Below, piece after piece: positions 5,306-14,880 of a stretch of DNA of 64,000 bases. The notes below the pieces were generated by a model. That model saw only the letters and a program-made list of their open reading frames with translations. It searched no databases and had not been told where the DNA came from. Source of the DNA: Janthinobacterium sp. 64 (GTDB taxonomy: Bacteria; Pseudomonadota; Gammaproteobacteria; Burkholderiales; Burkholderiaceae_D); contig NZ_PHUG01000001.1 in the NCBI RefSeq assembly GCF_002813325.1, forward strand, positions 62,001-126,000, in the 5' to 3' direction. Position numbers and translations under genes: made by a program. Positions within the stretch are counted from its first letter, which is position 1. Every line of letters begins with the position of its first letter.

Positions 5306-6174
5306 CCGCGCCTCCGTTGTGCGCCGAACAAGCCGTTCGGCATGATGAACAGCACCAGCAGGAACAGCACCATGCCGGACAATTCCTGCAGCGCGGAGCT
5401 GGCCAGGGTGACGGTCAGCGCTTCGGCCACGCCCAGCAGCACGGCAGCCAGCAGCACGCCGGGAATCGAGCCGATGCCGGCCAATACCGTGATGATGAAG
5501 GCTTTCACCGTCAGCGCGCCGCCGTAGGCGGGCTGGATCACGCCATAGCTGAACAGGGCCACGCCGGCAAACGCAGCCAGGATGCCGGCGACCAGAAAGG
5601 ACACCAGTTCCGTGCGGCCCGGGTCGATGCCCATCAGCTTGGCCGCGTCGCGGTTGCTGGAGACGGCGCGCACGGCGCGGCCATACCAGCTCGTCGACAG
5701 CCAGCGCCACAGGGCCGCCATCAGCACCAGGCTGACGCCAAAGAAAATCACTTCGCTGCGCATGCTGAAAAATGGGCCGATTTCAAACCCTTCCTGCAGC
5801 CAGCTCGACGAGGTCGAGCGGATGTCCGCCTTCCATACCAGCAAAATGAAATTAGTGAGTATTACGCCGATGCCGTAGGTGAGGATCAGCGAATTGATTT
5901 CGCGGTCTTTCTTGATGCGGCTGACGATCAGGTACACGCCCACGGACGTGAGGCTGACGATCACCAGCGCGATGGGGATGGCGAACATGGGCCCCAGGCC
6001 CAGGCCAGATTCGACGCTGTAGGCGATGTAGGCGGCCAGCAGCACCAGTTCGCCGTGCGCCAGGTTGATCACTTTCATGGTGCCGAAGACCAGCGCCAGT
6101 CCCAGTGCGATCAGGGCGTAGGAGCCGCCCTGCAGCAAGCCTGAATACAGGGCTTGCAAGATTAATTCCGTCAT
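5302..6174 (-). CDS. livH: Branched-chain amino acid-type ABC transporter, permease LivH
   Basis: A 290-aa permease of the expected LivH length, with 'LQALYSGLLQGGSYALIALGL' at the N-terminus and 'RAVSSNRDAAKLMGIDP' as the EAA-like loop that contacts the ATPases. It forms the heterodimeric channel with LivM. It follows the binding-protein gene after about 105 nt that holds a stable hairpin. Confidence 0.92.
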   Translation of the reverse strand: MTELILQALYSGLLQGGSYALIALGLALVFGTMKVINLAHGELVLLAAYIAYSVESGLGLGPMFAIPIALVIVSLTSVGVYLIVSRIKKDREINSLILTYGIGVILTNFILLVWKADIRSTSSSWLQEGFEIGPFFSMRSEVIFFGVSLVLMAALWRWLSTSWYGRAVRAVSSNRDAAKLMGIDPGRTELVSFLVAGILAAFAGVALFSYGVIQPAYGGALTVKAFIITVLAGIGSIPGVLLAAVLLGVAEALTVTLASSALQELSGMVLFLLVLFIMPNGLFGAQRRRG

Positions 6175-6239
6175 GTCGTCATCCCGTCAGGCAGCCCTGG
6201 CGCATCGCCAAAGATGCACCAGGACTGCCGTTCATCGGT

Positions 6240-6258
6240 GCGCGCCCGGCAGGCGCGC
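6240..6258 (-). promoter_or_regulatory. Intercistronic hairpin between binding-protein and livH genes
   Basis: Perfect 7-bp inverted repeat GCGCGCC / GGCGCGC with a 5-nt loop and no T tract. Such hairpins after a binding-protein gene commonly stabilise the upstream mRNA or partly attenuate read-through, giving more binding protein than permease. That role is inferred from position. Confidence 0.45.
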
Positions 6259-6279
6259 GCGTGTGCAGCGGGAGGCTGC

Positions 6280-7446
6280 CTACCAGGGCAGGGCCGGATA
6301 GGCCAGCTTGCCCGTCGCGTGCTCCTTCGGCCAGACGATCACCACCTTCTTGTCCTGGTGCTGCGCCATGCGGTGCACGAAGTTCAGGTTGTCGCCATTG
6401 GCGGCAAACTGCACGCGGCCGATCAGGGTGTCGCGGTCCGTCTTGCGCATCTCGTCGGCCACGCCGCCTTTCTTGAGCGTGCCCTTGTCGGCCGCGCGCG
6501 CGATCGCTTCGAACAGCAGCATCGATTGCACATAGCCGAACTGGCCCAGGTAGTCGGGCTCCTTCTTGTACAGCTGCTTGTAGGCGTCGCTGAAAGCCTT
6601 GCCGTCGGCCGTCTTGAATTCCGTGGGGAAGGGCAGCAGGGCCGTGCCGAACACATTCGGCATCAGGTCGGGGAAGTCGGTTGCCATCTTCGGCGTGGCC
6701 AGCGACCACACGCCCACCATGGCCTTGATCTTCGGTTTCAGGACGCGCGCGGCGCGGATGATGCCCACGTAATCGTTTTCGTAGCCGACCATGGCCACGA
6801 CTTCCGATTTATCCTGCAGCTTGATCTTGTTGATGATGGGCTTGAAGTCCGTAATGGCCGGGTCGAACGAATGCGTCGTCACTTTCACGCCCTTGGCCGC
6901 CAGGGCCTTTTCCACGTCTTTCGCCAGGCCTGTGGTGGCGTCCTTGGTCGAATACACGATGGAGACGGACTTGGCGCCCACGTCCTGCAGCAATCCCAGC
7001 ATGGCTTTTTCGTAGCCGGCCGTGTTATTGATGCGGAAAAAATTCTTGCGTCCGCTGGCCACCAGGCTGTCGTCCACGCCGCCCGAGGTGATGTAGACGA
7101 GGCCCAGCTTATTGGCCGTGTCCGAGGCGGGCGAAATATTGTTCGAGCCATAGCCGCCCGTGATGGCCACCACGCCCTGGCTGGCCAGCTTTTCCACGGC
7201 GGCGATGGCCTTGGCGGGCGCCGATTCGTCGTCGACGGTGATGATCTTGATCGTGTGCTTGCCGTTGGTCTTGTTGAAGACTTCGGCCGCGACCATGATC
7301 CCTTCCTGCATGCCGGCGCCGACGCGCGCCAGGTTGCCCGTCAGCGGGATTTCCGCGCCGACCAGGAATTCGTCGGCGCTGGCCTGCGTCATCCAGGCGC
7401 TGGCAACCAGCGCTGCCATGGCGATGCGTGTGTAGGTGAGTTTCAT
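6280..7446 (-). CDS. ABC transporter substrate-binding protein (Leu/Ile/Val-binding family)
   Basis: A 388-aa periplasmic type-I binding protein. The Sec signal peptide is about residues 1-24 (cleavage after QASA). The mature start 'DEFLVGAEIPLTGNLARVGAGMQEG' is the family's ligand-binding entry. A strong GGAGGAG lies just before the ATG at 7446. It is the first transport gene after the CoA-ligase gene (60 bp away). Binding proteins of this group recognise amino acids, amides, short acids and aromatic acids; the ligand is not identifiable here. Confidence 0.9.
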   Translation of the reverse strand: MKLTYTRIAMAALVASAWMTQASADEFLVGAEIPLTGNLARVGAGMQEGIMVAAEVFNKTNGKHTIKIITVDDESAPAKAIAAVEKLASQGVVAITGGYGSNNISPASDTANKLGLVYITSGGVDDSLVASGRKNFFRINNTAGYEKAMLGLLQDVGAKSVSIVYSTKDATTGLAKDVEKALAAKGVKVTTHSFDPAITDFKPIINKIKLQDKSEVVAMVGYENDYVGIIRAARVLKPKIKAMVGVWSLATPKMATDFPDLMPNVFGTALLPFPTEFKTADGKAFSDAYKQLYKKEPDYLGQFGYVQSMLLFEAIARAADKGTLKKGGVADEMRKTDRDTLIGRVQFAANGDNLNFVHRMAQHQDKKVVIVWPKEHATGKLAYPALPW

Positions 7447-7506: not shown

Positions 7507-9060
7507 TTACCGGGCATTCTGCGCCATTTGCCGCAGCTGCCCTTTTAAAATCTTGCCCGTGGCGGCGGCCGGCAGCGCTTCCATGACGATGATGGCGGAC
7601 GGGCATTTATAGGGCGACAGCGTTTGCGCCAGCCAGGCCTGCAATTGTGCCACGCTGGCGGGCTGGCGCGGGTCCAGCTCCACATAGGCGATGACATCCT
7701 CGTTGCCATCGGCCAGCGTTCGCCCGACCACTGCCGACTGCACCACGCAGGGATGGGCGTTGAGCGCCGTTTCCACTTCCAGCGGATATACATTGAAGCC
7801 GGAGCGGATGATCAATTCCTTGGTGCGGCCCACGATGAAGAGGGCGCCGTCCGGGTCCTGGCGCGCCATGTCGCCCGTGTTGAGCCAGCCGCCGTCGCGC
7901 ATGGTGGCCGCCGTCATGGCCGGTTCGCGGTAATAGCCAGCCATGATGTTCGGCCCGCGTATCCACAATTCTCCCGGCTCGCCCGCCGCCACGTCCAGGC
8001 CGGCCACGTCCACCACGCGCACTTCCACGCCCGGGATCGGCATGCCGACGGAATCGTCGCGGCGCGGCGCATCCAGGCGCGTCTGGCTGATGGTGGGCGC
8101 GCTTTCCGTCATGCCGTAGCCATTGTGCAGCGCGGTGCCCAGCAGCTTTTCCACCTCGTGCTTGAGCGACGGCGCCAGCGGCGAGCCGCCCGCATACGCA
8201 AAGCGCAGCCGCGTCGGCAGGGGAGTCTCCGCGCCGCCCAGGGTTTGCAGCAGCTTGGCGTACATGGCGGGCACGCCCTGCACGATGGTCAACTCATCGT
8301 CTTTCAATGCGGCCAGCAGGCCGTCGACGGTAAAGCGCGGCACCAGGTACAGCGCGGCGCCCGCATGCAGGCTGCCCAGGGCCACCGAGGCCAGGCCGTA
8401 CACGTGCGAAATCGGCAGCACGCCGTAGGCGCGGTCGCTGCGCGTCAAGCCACGCAGGGTGCTGGACACGGCGGCGATGAACAGCAGGTTGCGGTGCGTG
8501 AGCATCACGCCTTTCGATTGTCCCGTCGTGCCCGTCGTGTAGATCAGCGCGGCCACCTGTTCGTTGTCGGGCACGCAGGCTTCCGGAATGGACGCTGCAT
8601 TCAATGCTCCCGCCAGCAGCTCACCCATGCCGTCGACCGTGGCGCTGGCCGCGCCCAGACGTGCCGCATGCGCGGCCGCTTCCGGGGAGGCGCCGGCCAG
8701 GAACAGCACGCGCCGCGCCGAGCAGTGGCCTGCGATGCTGTCGATCTCGCGCGCCGACAGCCGCGCATTGACGTTGACGATCCACGCATCGATGCTGGCG
8801 CAGGCAAAGATCAGCGCCACCTGCAGTGCGCTGTTTTCGCCCACCACCATCAGGCGGTCGCCGGCGCGCACGTCGAGCTGGCGCAGCAGCTGCGCTGCAC
8901 TTTCCACACTGTGCTGCAGCTGGGCGTAGGTCCAGTGGCGGCCACCTTCATGCAGCGCCGGCGCGTCAGGCGCGCGCGCGGCCCAGTAGGCGGGGATGGC
9001 CGACAGGCGCGCCGGCAAGCCGGCCAGCAGGGCAGGGATGTCCATCGCGGTCGCCGTCAC
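7507..9060 (-). CDS. Class I AMP-forming acyl-CoA synthetase/ligase
   Basis: A 517-aa ANL-superfamily enzyme that activates a carboxylic acid to its CoA thioester using ATP. The P-loop-like motif 'ALIYTTGTTGQSKGVMLTH' is at about residues 165-180. 'NGYGMTES' (A5), 'LNTGDMARQDPDG' (A7) and 'GRTKELIIRSGFNVYPLEVE' (A8 hinge) are all intact, and the catalytic Lys is in 'TGKILKGQLR' near the C-terminus. The start overlaps the dehydrogenase stop (ATGA). Together with the importer it would trap and activate the imported acid. Medium-chain, branched or aromatic acids are possible. Confidence 0.92.
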   Translation of the reverse strand: MTATAMDIPALLAGLPARLSAIPAYWAARAPDAPALHEGGRHWTYAQLQHSVESAAQLLRQLDVRAGDRLMVVGENSALQVALIFACASIDAWIVNVNARLSAREIDSIAGHCSARRVLFLAGASPEAAAHAARLGAASATVDGMGELLAGALNAASIPEACVPDNEQVAALIYTTGTTGQSKGVMLTHRNLLFIAAVSSTLRGLTRSDRAYGVLPISHVYGLASVALGSLHAGAALYLVPRFTVDGLLAALKDDELTIVQGVPAMYAKLLQTLGGAETPLPTRLRFAYAGGSPLAPSLKHEVEKLLGTALHNGYGMTESAPTISQTRLDAPRRDDSVGMPIPGVEVRVVDVAGLDVAAGEPGELWIRGPNIMAGYYREPAMTAATMRDGGWLNTGDMARQDPDGALFIVGRTKELIIRSGFNVYPLEVETALNAHPCVVQSAVVGRTLADGNEDVIAYVELDPRQPASVAQLQAWLAQTLSPYKCPSAIIVMEALPAAATGKILKGQLRQMAQNAR

Positions 9061-11087: not shown

Positions 11088-11155
11088 TTTCAGGCTCCCT
11101 GGAAATCAGTTTGCCTAGCCAAATTGTACGTGTCAACCGTTTTGTGAAACATTCG

Positions 11156-11168
11156 TTCGCACAGCGAA
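11156..11168. promoter_or_regulatory. Candidate IclR operator (TTCGC-ACA-GCGAA)
   Basis: Perfect 5-bp inverted repeat with a 3-bp spacer, 69 bp upstream of the IclR gene start. IclR-family operators are short dyads of about 13-15 bp near their own promoter. Assignment is by position and symmetry only. Confidence 0.45.
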
Positions 11169-11237
11169 ATGCTGCGGTGCATGAAAAATACCTGGAAAAT
11201 TGACCTGCGCAGCGGTTTTCGGCCTTGCTGCTTGAAC

Positions 11238-11263
11238 ATCGCTATATACGTCTGTATATTGCG
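11238..11263 (+). promoter_or_regulatory. Candidate ModE (molybdate) box 1
   Basis: Reads ATCGCTATATA, six bases, TATATTGCG. The known ModE Mo-box is ATCGCTATATA-N6/7-TATATAACGAT, so the left half is exact and the right half differs at two positions. It lies 90 bp upstream of the TonB-receptor start. Confidence 0.65.
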
Positions 11264-11316
11264 CTGTTGATGGCGGCCGCTGCACGAGTGGCCGATTTTT
11301 GTATTTTTTTGTATAC

Positions 11317-11340
11317 CGCTATATAAAGCGATATATAACG
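11317..11340 (+). promoter_or_regulatory. Candidate ModE (molybdate) box 2
   Basis: Reads CGCTATATA, six bases, TATATAACG, an exact match to the core of the ModE Mo-box with the expected spacing. It ends 12 bp before the ATG of the TonB-dependent receptor. A repressor bound here would block transcription or its start, so the receptor is predicted to be made when molybdate is scarce. Confidence 0.75.
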
Positions 11341-11352
11341 AAAGAGAACAAG

Positions 11353-13341
11353 ATGACGATGGTGAAACAGGTAATGGCGGGCGCCGTGCTGCTGGCGCTG
11401 GCGCAGCAGGCCGCCGGCATGGAAGATGTCGATGCGGCGGCGCCGTTCGTGCTGGGCACGGTGACGGTGGTCGGCCAGCGCGAGCAGGCGGGGCAGATGG
11501 AACAGCAGGTGGGTTCGCAAGTGAGCCGTGCCGAGATGCGCCGCTTTAACCGCGACAACGTGGGCGACGCCCTCAATTTGCTGTCCGGCGTGTCGTTGTC
11601 GACCAATTCGCGCAACGAAAAAACCATCGCCATCCGCGGCTTCGATGCGCGCCAGGTGCCGCTGTACATCGACGGCATTCCCGTCTACGTGCCGTACGAC
11701 GGCTACGTCGATTTCAACCGCTTCACCACAAGCGACCTGGCCGCCATCCAGGTGGCCAAGGGCTACAGCTCCGTGGCCTACGGCGCCAACACCCTGGGCG
11801 GCGCCATCAACCTGGTGTCGCGCAAGCCGACCGCTTTGACGGAAGGCGATGTGTCCGTGGGATTCGGTTCGGGCAGCGAGCGCCAGGTATCGGCCAACGT
11901 GGGCACGAACCAGGGCCTGTGGTATCTGCAGGCGGGCGTGTCGTATATCGACAGCGACGGCTTTCCCATGTCGTCGGACTTCCGCCCGACTGCCACGGAA
12001 GACGGCGGCATGCGCAACAATGCGTATCGCAAGGACCACAAGCTGTCGCTCAAGGTGGGCTACACGCCCGATGGCGCGCATGCGGGCGACGAATATGCAC
12101 TCAGCTACTACAAGCAGCATGGCGAAAAGGGCCAGCCGCCATCGACGAATCCCGTCGGCGCGCGCTACTGGCAATGGCCGTACTGGAACAAGGAAAGCGT
12201 GTATTTCGTCTCGCAGACGCGCCTGGGCGAGGCCGAGCGTTTGAAACTGCGCCTGTACCACGACAGCTACGACAATGAAATCACGTCCTACACGAACGGC
12301 AGCTACACGACCCTGAAAACCAGCGGCCAGGGCAGCGTCAGCGGTGGGCGCAGCATCTATAACGACCGCACGAATGGCGGCGCGGTGGAACTTGAATCGT
12401 TCCGCCTGGCCGCGCACAGCCTGCGGTTCGTGGCCAGCTACAAGGCCGATGAACACCAGGAACGCGATGGCAAAGGCGTGCGCACCACCTGGTACAAGGA
12501 TGCCTTGTGGACCCTGGGCGCGGAAGACAGCATCGCCCTCGATGCAGCGACGCAACTGTCGCTGGGCGCCTCGCGCAATGCACTGCACCCCGACACCGTC
12601 TACAGCGCCGGCAATGCCTACACCTTGCCGGAGAATCAATCGGCCACCGATTTGCAGGCGGGCCTGTTCCATCAATTGCATCCCGAGGCGAAGGTGTATG
12701 CCACGGTGGCGCGCAAGTCGCGCCTGCCGACCCTGAAGGACCGCTACTCGCAGCGTCTGGGCACGTATATTGAAAACCCGGCCTTGCGCGCGGAGGAGGC
12801 GATGAACTATGAGCTGGGATATCAAGGGAACCTGCAGGGCACCAGCCTGGAAGCGGCGCTGTTCTACAGCGACGTGAAGGACAAGATCCAGAGCGTGGCG
12901 AACGTCTCGGGCGTGCGTTCGCAGATGCGCAACGCGGGCAGGGCGCATATCAGTGGCGTGGAACTGGGCTTGCGCGGCAGCGCCGGGGCCTGGCTGGACT
13001 GGGGCGGCAACTACACGTACACGGACATGAAGAACGTCAGCGATCGCGCCATCCGCCTGACGGACGTGCCGCGCCACAAGCTGACGGCGCATGCCGTGCT
13101 GCACGCGGCGCGCCAGGTCGACGTGGTGGCCATCGCGGAATCGAACAGCGGGCGCTGGGTCTCGAACACCCTGGAACTCGGTGGTTTTACCACGCTGAAC
13201 CTGAAGGCCGTCTACCGCCCCTTGCCGGCATTGACCCTGGAAGCGGGCGTGGCGAACCTGGGTGATCGCAATTATGCGCTGTCCGACGGCTTCCCCAGCG
13301 CGGGCCGCACGTGGCTGGCCAATGCGCAATACCAGTTCTGA
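11353..13341 (+). CDS. TonB-dependent outer-membrane receptor, predicted molybdate-regulated
   Basis: A 662-aa outer-membrane receptor. A signal peptide covers about residues 1-22. 'GTVTVVGQ' near residue 37 is the TonB-box-like segment. The plug domain follows ('RDNVGDALNLLSGVSL...IRGFDARQVPLYIDGIPV', 'YGANTLGGAINLVSRKP'), then a 22-strand barrel ending in 'NAQYQF' with the terminal Phe. AAAGAG precedes the ATG at 11353, so the longer upstream reading (from 11299) is not used. Two ModE-type operators lie just upstream, and a secreted cysteine-free sulfite-oxidase-fold protein follows 30 bp downstream. Proposed cargo: molybdate/tungstate or a chelate of them. The family alone would suggest siderophore or metal complexes. 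Confidence 0.9.
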   Translation: MTMVKQVMAGAVLLALAQQAAGMEDVDAAAPFVLGTVTVVGQREQAGQMEQQVGSQVSRAEMRRFNRDNVGDALNLLSGVSLSTNSRNEKTIAIRGFDARQVPLYIDGIPVYVPYDGYVDFNRFTTSDLAAIQVAKGYSSVAYGANTLGGAINLVSRKPTALTEGDVSVGFGSGSERQVSANVGTNQGLWYLQAGVSYIDSDGFPMSSDFRPTATEDGGMRNNAYRKDHKLSLKVGYTPDGAHAGDEYALSYYKQHGEKGQPPSTNPVGARYWQWPYWNKESVYFVSQTRLGEAERLKLRLYHDSYDNEITSYTNGSYTTLKTSGQGSVSGGRSIYNDRTNGGAVELESFRLAAHSLRFVASYKADEHQERDGKGVRTTWYKDALWTLGAEDSIALDAATQLSLGASRNALHPDTVYSAGNAYTLPENQSATDLQAGLFHQLHPEAKVYATVARKSRLPTLKDRYSQRLGTYIENPALRAEEAMNYELGYQGNLQGTSLEAALFYSDVKDKIQSVANVSGVRSQMRNAGRAHISGVELGLRGSAGAWLDWGGNYTYTDMKNVSDRAIRLTDVPRHKLTAHAVLHAARQVDVVAIAESNSGRWVSNTLELGGFTTLNLKAVYRPLPALTLEAGVANLGDRNYALSDGFPSAGRTWLANAQYQF

Positions 13342-13371
13342 TTTTTTGATTGTTCCATGAAAGGACACAGC

Positions 13372-13908
13372 ATGTTGAAGAAAATATTCCTTGGCCTGGC
13401 TTCGGCCGCACTGCTGGCAACGGCGCCCGCGTGGGCCGACCCGGCGCCGGCGCGCGACAACATGAGCCACGCGCTGACCGTCACGGGCATGGTGGAAACG
13501 CCGTTGACCCTGAAGGTGGCTGACCTGCGCCAGCTGCCGCCGGCCAATGGCGGAGAGATTGCCGTCACGCGCCATAACGGCGACAAGGCCGAGACCATCA
13601 CCAGTTACAAAGGCGTGCGCCTGCGCGACATCCTCGACAAGGCGGTGCTCGACGCACCTGGCCATAACGATGTCAAGAAGCTCGCCATCATCGCCACGGC
13701 TACCGATGGCTACGCGGTAGTGTTTTCCTGGGGCGAGCTGTATAACTCTCCGGCTGGCGAGGGCGTCATCGTCTACTACGAAAAAAATGGCAAGGCCCTC
13801 GACGACAACGATGGCGAGATCGCGCTGATCTCGGCCAAGGATATCCGTACGGGGCCGCGCCATGTGAAGTGGCTGAACGGCATCGAGGTGCGCAAGCTGG
13901 TGGAATAA
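13372..13908 (+). CDS. Secreted sulfite-oxidase-fold (Oxidored_molyb-like) protein lacking cysteine
   Basis: A 178-aa protein with a clear Sec signal peptide (about residues 1-22, cleavage after AWA). The remainder resembles the molybdopterin-binding fold of the sulfite oxidase/YedY family: 'LTVTGMVETPLTLKVADLRQLP', 'SYKGVRLRDILDKA', 'ATDGYAVVFSWGEL', 'RHVKWLNGIEVRKL'. The family's Mo-ligand cysteine is missing: the protein contains no cysteine. It is therefore probably not a Mo enzyme and may be a periplasmic binding or carrier protein. AAGGA sits 7-8 nt before the ATG at 13372. Co-transcription with the receptor and its ModE boxes suggests a molybdenum-related role. Confidence 0.8.
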   Translation: MLKKIFLGLASAALLATAPAWADPAPARDNMSHALTVTGMVETPLTLKVADLRQLPPANGGEIAVTRHNGDKAETITSYKGVRLRDILDKAVLDAPGHNDVKKLAIIATATDGYAVVFSWGELYNSPAGEGVIVYYEKNGKALDDNDGEIALISAKDIRTGPRHVKWLNGIEVRKLVE

Positions 13909-13910
13909 TG

Positions 13911-13948
13911 AAAAGCGCCGCCGTGGAGCCATCCCCGGCGGCTGATTT
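13911..13948. terminator. Bidirectional rho-independent terminator
   Basis: GCCGCCG (13917-13923) pairs with CGGCGGC (13936-13942) across a 12-nt loop. A T-rich run (TGATTTTCTT) follows on the plus strand and a T run (GCTTTTC) on the minus strand. It separates the receptor operon from the convergent hydrolase operon. Confidence 0.75.
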
Positions 13949-13950
13949 TC

Positions 13951-14880
13951 TTACATTGCCAGTGCTTTTTTCATCGCCTGGCCCGCCACGTCAAACAATC
14001 CCCGCGCCGCTGGCGTCAGGCCCAGCATGTGCATAGCCGCATGGATCATGCCGTCAAGCTGCACGCACTCGGCCGCCACTCCGGCATCGCGCAGCCGCTG
14101 TGCATACGTAATCCCCTCGTCATGCAGCGGGTCGTACTCGCATACCAGCACGGTCGCCGGTGGCAAGTCCTTCAGCGTACTTGCCCGAAGGGGCGCCGCG
14201 TAAGGCTGCATGCCGTCGGCCGGTTCATTCAGGTAGGCCGACCAGCAAAAACGCATGGCCTCGCGGGTCAGCGAAAAGCCTTCCGCATGGCGCTGGTAGG
14301 ACGGCGTATCGAAGGCAAAATCGAGCGCCGGGTACAGCAGCAGCTGGTGCGCCAGCGCGGGGCCGGCCTGGTCGCGCGCCATCAGGGCGGCGGCTGCCGC
14401 CAGGTTGCCACCCGCGCTGTCGCCGCCCACCGCCAGCCGCCGCGCATCGATGCCGAGCGCCGCCGCATGTTCGGCGACCCAGCACAAGGCCCGGTAAAAG
14501 TCGTTCAGTGGCACGGGGAACTTGTGCTCGGGCGCCAGCCGGTAGTCGACGGAAAAGATCACGCAGCCGGTGGCGTTGGCCAGCGCGCGGCACGGATTGT
14601 CGTACAGGTCCAGCGAGCACAGACACCATCCTCCCCCATGCGCAAAGACGATGGCCGGCAAGGGCTGGCCCGCCTGCGCGCCGGCCGGCACGTAGGCGCG
14701 CACGGCCAGCGCATGCTCGCCGGGCAGTACGTAATCCCTGATCGAGCTGACGTCTTCCAGTGGCCCGTGCAGCTGGCGCAAGCCCGTTTCCGTGGATGCG
14801 CGCAGGTCTGCCAGCGAGGCGGGCGGCGGCGCATCTTTTGTTTCTTCCAGCCAGGCGGCGATCAGCGGGTCGAGACTCAC
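13951..14880 (-). CDS. Alpha/beta hydrolase, hormone-sensitive-lipase-type esterase
   Basis: A 309-aa cytoplasmic esterase. The oxyanion motif is HGGGW (about residue 85), the nucleophile elbow is GDSAGG (about 158), and the acid/base residues are in 'CEYDPLHDEG' and 'GMIHAAM'. These are the hallmarks of HSL (family IV) carboxylesterases. The start is a GTG at 14880 that overlaps the upstream hydrolase stop (GTGA), so the longer open frame reaching 15426 is rejected. Last gene of a three-gene operon with a second hydrolase and an isomerase. Confidence 0.88.
   Translation of the reverse strand: MSLDPLIAAWLEETKDAPPPASLADLRASTETGLRQLHGPLEDVSSIRDYVLPGEHALAVRAYVPAGAQAGQPLPAIVFAHGGGWCLCSLDLYDNPCRALANATGCVIFSVDYRLAPEHKFPVPLNDFYRALCWVAEHAAALGIDARRLAVGGDSAGGNLAAAAALMARDQAGPALAHQLLLYPALDFAFDTPSYQRHAEGFSLTREAMRFCWSAYLNEPADGMQPYAAPLRASTLKDLPPATVLVCEYDPLHDEGITYAQRLRDAGVAAECVQLDGMIHAAMHMLGLTPAARGLFDVAGQAMKKALAM

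Follow-up and report, generated by a model that had tools for sequence, protein, structure and literature searches.

Why does a gene for a TonB-dependent outer-membrane receptor (TBDR) stand directly behind two sites of the type bound by ModE, the switch of molybdate uptake? The classical ModE regulon consists of an inner-membrane transporter and molybdoenzyme genes, and the usual assumption is that porins let molybdate pass the outer membrane. The question is raised by a stretch of 64,000 nucleotides from Janthinobacterium sp. 64 (C1:62001-126000 in a 6.3-Mb genome of two contigs), referred to below as the window, in which the receptor gene is followed by a gene for a small protein with the fold of sulfite oxidase (SUOX). 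An earlier note on this DNA had proposed that the two proteins take up molybdenum or tungsten. The sequence evidence assembled here argues strongly for a link of the pair to ModE and molybdenum, and we consider it likely that the pair forms the outer-membrane branch of ModE-controlled molybdenum (or tungsten) acquisition, with the receptor importing the metal species and the SUOX-fold protein binding it.

Both boxes lie ahead of the receptor gene, where the earlier note had placed them (Table 1), and match the Mo-box pattern without a single mismatch. The pattern was derived from the consensus quoted in that note and agrees with what we take to be the consensus of Escherichia coli ModE. Within three mismatches, the window contains these two matches and no others, compared with a mean of 0.04 matches in shuffled sequence. 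Only 12 nt lie between the end of box 2 and the ATG of the receptor gene. A scan of positions 11100-14000 for sigma-70-like promoters, which is based on consensus matching only and is weak, gave two overlapping matches against a shuffle mean of 0.9. With a promoter-like element overlapping box 1 and with box 2 near the ATG, the arrangement would suit repression.

The proposal depends on the presence of a ModE in this genome, and modE was found as the final gene of a modA-modB-modC-modE operon, consecutive on one strand at about 3.74 Mb of C1, with the same type of box before modA. The encoded ModE has a helix-turn-helix (HTH) and two TOBE domains; it scores above cut-off with ModE_repress (104.9 bits) and Mop (147.4 bits), and below cut-off with the full-length equivalog model (185 of 369). 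ModA and ModB are above their NCBIfam cut-offs, and modC is short and below its own. When the whole genome was scanned with up to two mismatches, three places were found, namely boxes 1 and 2 and a site with one mismatch at 3743937-3743960, 36 nt ahead of modA. In 12.6 Mb of sequence simulated from the dinucleotides of the window, there was no site with 0-1 mismatch and one site with two mismatches. As a further control, the pattern was read backwards: at up to two mismatches, it gave three forward and four reverse matches in the same genome and about as many matches as the real pattern in relatives of the genus. Hence, sites with two mismatches are uninformative by themselves, and the argument is built on sites with no more than one mismatch, together with where they lie. 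At this stringency, the genome holds only the three sites, and the predicted ModE regulon comprises two operons, the modABCE importer and regulator and the TBDR-SUOX pair. Seven proteins of the genome match PF00384, most of them presumably molybdoenzymes that need molybdenum; NuoG also matches this family. The genome also encodes a lone 114-residue Mop-like TOBE protein at about 259 kb on C1 (locus L018, 4302-4646), with a periplasmic binding-protein-like gene, named by eye, about 1.3 kb away on the same strand (5924-6979); the box scan of the genome found no Mo-box at this locus.

The arrangement is conserved within the genus. Homologues of the SUOX-fold protein were detected at E<=0.001 in 23 of 195 genomes of the family, including 11 of the 13 genomes of the genus (the present one counted). 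Twelve other genomes of the genus were scanned for boxes, 10 with and two (G048 and G072) without the pair. The conservation of boxes and genes that the earlier note had suggested checking was borne out in all 10 other carriers, each of which has three sites with at most one mismatch: two ahead of the pair, and a third about 2.1 kb away from modE, a spacing that matches the modA box of the present genome. G048 and G072 possess modE and a single site, which again lies 2.1 kb away from that gene. Thus, all 32 such sites in the 12 genomes fall at two loci (20 at the pair and 12 near modE), and with the three sites of the present genome the count becomes 35 of 35. The modE genes of some relatives contain stops, which precede the conserved start, and the frames are open from there in the four such loci inspected. 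A search of 25 genomes for the receptor (E<=1e-80) located it in 13, each time as the immediate neighbor of the SUOX gene; the candidates scored (up to 48 per genome) included no second copy. In Janthinobacterium lividum HSC-65S10 (L114; G179:C77:61206-63182), the receptor gene has one in-frame TAA, reflecting either a pseudogene or a sequencing error.

More distant relatives were collected with a profile scan of genome contigs, of which the best 80 of 137 relatives of the SUOX-fold protein were examined. These comprise 16 core Janthinobacterium loci (75-95% identical and partly from the same strains as the genus scan) and 64 others, three of which also bear the name Janthinobacterium. Boxes were sought from 400 bp ahead of the pair's first gene to 40 bp inside it. 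Sites with at most one mismatch were present at all 16 core loci and at 32 of the 64 others (41 of 64 at up to two mismatches), whereas shuffles of the same upstream stretches give expectations of 0.00 and 0.02, respectively. The receptor gene lies directly upstream of the SUOX gene at 14 of 16 core loci and at 42 of 64 other loci. Matches to ModA, ModB, or ModE (tblastn, E<=1e-8, TOBE proteins included, within the locus stretch analyzed) occur near the SUOX gene at 36 of the 64 distant loci and at none of the 16 core loci, because the mod operon lies elsewhere in those genomes.

The fullest cluster, in Herminiimonas (L138), reads box-modABC-box (two mismatches)-TBDR-SUOX-nifQ-modE. Loci L130 and L154 have the same order without nifQ, and an Undibacterium locus (L166) reads box-modABC-SUOX-nifQ-modE, without a receptor. 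NifQ matches were found at 20 of the 64 distant loci; the present genome gave none, nor did the control genomes of the same search. At three loci, the NifQ gene (PF04891, 98-123 bits) lies between the SUOX gene and modE (L138 8516-9151, L166 8477-9064, and L129 8483-9082). Overall, ModE-linked receptors are spread over many Betaproteobacteria and some Gammaproteobacteria, and Bacteroidota hold more distant cousins. In Chryseobacterium (L187, 3050-16134), a series of genes on one strand encodes a molybdopterin oxidoreductase, the SUOX-fold protein, MoeA, a short open reading frame (ORF), a MobA-like protein, a receptor (31% identical), a ThiF/MoeB-like protein, MoaE, one further ORF, and ModA. 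No box with up to two mismatches was found in this stretch, and the link to molybdenum is therefore independent of the boxes there. In one Flavobacterium locus (L190), a relative of the window receptor directly precedes the SUOX gene; in another (L188), a receptor that tblastn with the window receptor missed does so, and a solitary ModE-like HTH gene stands before it. In a metagenome-assembled genome (MAG) of the Rhodocyclaceae (L143, 5158-7877), a solute-binding protein and a di-haem oxidoreductase are encoded between the receptor gene (42% identical) and the SUOX gene, and modABC-like genes follow the latter.

Both genes are what the earlier note had taken them for. The receptor carries the Plug (PF07715, 74 bits) and barrel (PF00593, 116 bits) domains, both above cut-off, and has no cysteine. 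Its AlphaFold2 model (pLDDT 87.0, pTM 0.86) has BtuB, PirA, Cir, and OprC as its best solved matches, with PhuR and PqqU, among others, as further fold neighbors, at 15-18% identity to the solved receptors listed. These neighbors serve cargoes as diverse as cobalamin, copper, catecholates, haem, and PQQ and give no lead to a ligand. Scores with the NCBIfam siderophore and haemin models fall far short of the cut-offs, the best being TonB-siderophore with 137 of 223.5 bits. A stretch of the LGTVTV type, a possible TonB box, was noted by eye at residues 34-39, in a region with pLDDT below 50; L34 and G35 are invariant in 35 sequences.

The partner protein matches Oxidored_molyb (PF00174) with 46.7 bits (cut-off 24), and its AlphaFold2 model (pLDDT 86.7, pTM 0.77) and the associated fold matches confirm the SUOX fold. 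Its N terminus, judged by eye, resembles a Sec signal ending in APAWA-DP. The whole sequence contains no cysteine and hence no cysteine ligand of the kind found in SUOX-type molybdoenzymes; Arg72 occupies the alignment column in which relatives carry this residue. The database name "molybdopterin-dependent oxidoreductase" thus cannot be right, in its usual sense, for the cysteine-free members. The lack of cysteine pointed out in the earlier note is real. A cysteine, the putative Mo ligand, is found in this column in 36 of the 64 distant members (and is absent in the other 28), and starred branches of a tree of the SUOX domain (125 columns, 44 of 75 inner branches open) force at least three changes of cysteine state. 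These changes would most simply be losses, a direction that the tree leaves unsettled, and absence of the cysteine alone cannot define the function of the family. The binder or carrier proposed in the earlier note is a plausible role, and the window protein is probably a non-catalytic periplasmic binder.

Table 1. Positions of features at the receptor-SUOX locus (window numbering) and of cytochrome c-like SUOX fusions in relatives (locus numbering)
Feature	Position	Strand	Basis
ModE-type Mo box 1, CGCTATATACGTCTGTATATTGCG	11240-11263, AT before it from 11238 (11238..11263)	+	Pattern scan
ModE-type Mo box 2, CGCTATATAAAGCGATATATAACG	11317-11340	+	Pattern scan
Promoter-like TTGAAC-17-TATATT, second hexamer inside box 1	11232..11260	+	Consensus match, weak
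TonB-dependent outer-membrane receptor, 662 aa	11353..13341	+	Pfam Plug and barrel, AlphaFold2 model
SUOX-fold protein, putatively exported (N terminus judged by eye), 183 aa	13357..13908	+	PF00174, AlphaFold2 model
Signal-peptide-like stretch, 27 codons, ending in APAWA	13357..13437	+	Judged by eye
CXXCH-SUOX fusion, L129	7635-8468		
CXXCH-SUOX fusion, L131	4294-5166		
CXXCH-SUOX fusion, L133	7551-8459		
CXXCH-SUOX fusion, L135	7395-8447		

The two genes are separated by 15 bases. An alternative start of the SUOX gene, the ATG at 13372, would give a protein of 178 residues, a length common to many database homologues. The pair is flanked on the left by a gene for an IclR-type regulator and on the right by one for an alpha/beta hydrolase (Abhydrolase_3), both on the opposite strand. 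An open frame for 896 residues runs antisense across both genes (window 11242-13932, minus strand) and is presumably a shadow ORF, as expected in high-GC DNA.

Because the pair stands behind boxes of the molybdate-uptake switch and is kept inside the molybdate clusters of several relatives, it is probably a so far uncharacterized outer-membrane step of molybdenum (or tungsten) uptake; that this step is uptake across the outer membrane is what we infer from the membership of the receptor in the TBDR family and from the boxes it has in common with modA. In the proposed mechanism, ModE-molybdate would repress both operons. When molybdate becomes scarce, ModE would leave boxes 1 and 2, and the pair would be transcribed together with modABCE. 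The receptor would then import a molybdenum or tungsten species into the periplasm, most probably molybdate in complex with an organic ligand; the cargo is probably chelated because free molybdate should pass through porins. The SUOX-fold protein would bind the imported species or its ligand and make it available to ModA and ModBC.

Several observations weigh against this reading. The pair is missing from two of the genus's 13 genomes, although these have modE and its 2.1-kb site, so it is not essential. At 23 of the 64 distant loci, there is no box within 400 bp even at two mismatches; in L166 and L154, a box stands further upstream, before modA, and in the others none was seen. A ModA-, ModB-, or ModE-like match is lacking in the stretch analyzed at 28 of the 64, and seven of these 28 also lack a receptor match, two of the seven having a box with one mismatch. 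The SUOX gene occurs without a receptor at L166, L172, L124, and L125, and thus the two proteins are not obligate partners. L124 and L125, from two Janthinobacterium strains, have one box with one mismatch directly before the SUOX gene (approximately 7947-8546) and no receptor match.

Alternative explanations concern the boxes, the cargo, and the second protein. It is scarcely credible that the boxes arose by chance and that the receptor is unrelated to molybdenum. This idea draws solely on the backwards control, which matches as often as the pattern at up to two mismatches, and it is contradicted by conservation and gene linkage; chance boxes are ruled out by the window and genome scans, the simulation, the conservation in the genus, and the 32 of 64 distant loci with a box where 0.00 were expected. 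The receptor could also import an ordinary iron siderophore whose ligand binds molybdate as well, with ModE merely tuning the cross-talk. Molybdate-catecholate siderophores exist, catecholate receptors are among the fold neighbors, and the best NCBIfam model, although below cut-off, is a siderophore one. This explanation is nevertheless very improbable: across many genera, mod genes or ModE boxes accompany the receptor gene, and no genes for siderophore synthesis were seen among the scanned neighbors, most neighbors lying outside the scan. As to the second protein, the 36 distant members with cysteine, together with proteins of Sulfuricella and Sterolibacterium MAGs in which a CXXCH cytochrome c-like domain is fused to the N-terminal side of the SUOX domain, keep a redox role under consideration. 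In such a case, the protein would release molybdenum from the imported complex by redox chemistry or ligand exchange; many family members would be real or former redox proteins, and the cysteine-free Janthinobacterium form would be a derived variant with only part of the activity left. The cysteine of this column meets, in a weak alignment (8.5 bits), the cysteine of an MsrP-like PF00174 protein of the present genome. PF00034 was confirmed in the L131 fusion and is also among the precomputed domains of P0108 and P0120, and the di-haem oxidoreductase of L143 adjoins a SUOX gene. However, of the 28 cysteine-less distant members, 22 retain either a mod-like gene or a box with no more than one mismatch, P0096 combines an N-terminal CXXCH domain with a glycine in the cysteine column, and the SUOX domain spans about 150 residues, versus 261 or more in the SUOX enzymes among the fold matches listed. 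We thus regard a redox function as unlikely, if worth keeping in mind. In L131, a second, single-domain SUOX gene lies directly before the fusion gene.

A pterin might be the ligand. The link to ModE and molybdenum drawn in the earlier note held up, through modE, the modA box, the conserved boxes, and the mod clusters; what that note had left unconsidered is PruR. It is described as a periplasmic pterin-binding SUOX-fold protein of about 170 residues with no Mo-ligand cysteine, in which a "mostly conserved" tryptophan takes the place of the cysteine, and with a co-transcribed DcpA/DTB regulator gene (PMC13259868). If the SUOX-fold protein bound a pterin in the same way, the system could scavenge pterin-bound molybdenum, such as the molybdenum cofactor (Moco) or its breakdown products, which we find rather improbable. 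The window protein has Arg72 in the cysteine column and no tryptophan in residues 63-92, there is no DcpA-type gene beside its gene, and no PruR chain appears among 16 profile matches at E<=10. We know of no precedent for uptake of Moco across the outer membrane, and, according to the review on PruR, that protein itself probably cannot hold Moco (PMC13259868). A more speculative variant, to which we give a similarly small chance, is salvage of environmental Moco: the receptor would import ready-made Mo-pterin, and the SUOX-fold protein, with a Moco fold that lacks the metal ligand in some lineages, would be a periplasmic cofactor carrier.

If ModE-controlled uptake through the receptor is the correct reading, bacteria with a ModE-linked receptor would actively pump molybdenum or tungsten species across the outer membrane. 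This would matter for nitrate reduction and nitrogen fixation in molybdenum-poor settings, suggest what a set of proteins currently annotated as "molybdopterin-dependent oxidoreductase" may do, and provide ModE with a testable new target.

How does the pair compare with known systems? The likeness to ModE/ModABC lies in the same box, a regulator in the same genome, and, in some relatives, the same cluster; the difference is that the regulon here extends to an outer-membrane receptor and its SUOX-fold partner. Metal-specific TonB-dependent transporters are on record for copper (OprC), manganese (MnoT), and zinc (HmuR/BhuR), OprC being controlled by CueR and MnoT induced at low manganese (PMC8602904). 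The window receptor shares with them the plug and barrel and, like OprC under CueR, would stand under the regulator of one metal; it differs in being tied to ModE boxes and mod genes and in a putative cargo that is an oxyanion metal. The secreted ModA-IcmP route of Pseudomonas aeruginosa likewise is a proposed outer-membrane step in molybdate acquisition, and the available text describes no ModE box or SUOX-fold partner for it (PMC8602904). From sulfite oxidase, MsrP (YedY), and SorA, the SUOX-fold protein is set apart by its single small domain without a Mo-holding cysteine. PruR is the nearest characterized cysteine-free single-domain counterpart in fold: both proteins are small (about 170 and 183 residues) and without the Mo-ligand cysteine, and the window protein, judged by its N terminus, is putatively exported as PruR is. 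They differ in the residue at the cysteine column and in the missing tryptophan, as compared via the published description of PruR, and in gene context, the window gene being tied to mod genes and having the receptor and Abhydrolase_3 genes, and no DcpA gene, as neighbors; no sequence match to PruR chains was detected. In the open-licence literature on the molybdenum and receptor theme, no description of a ModE-linked TBDR with a SUOX-fold partner was found among the matches listed. Metal-specific TBDRs under the regulator of their own metal are already known; judged by these matches, what would be new is a receptor linked to ModE and accompanied by a SUOX-fold partner.

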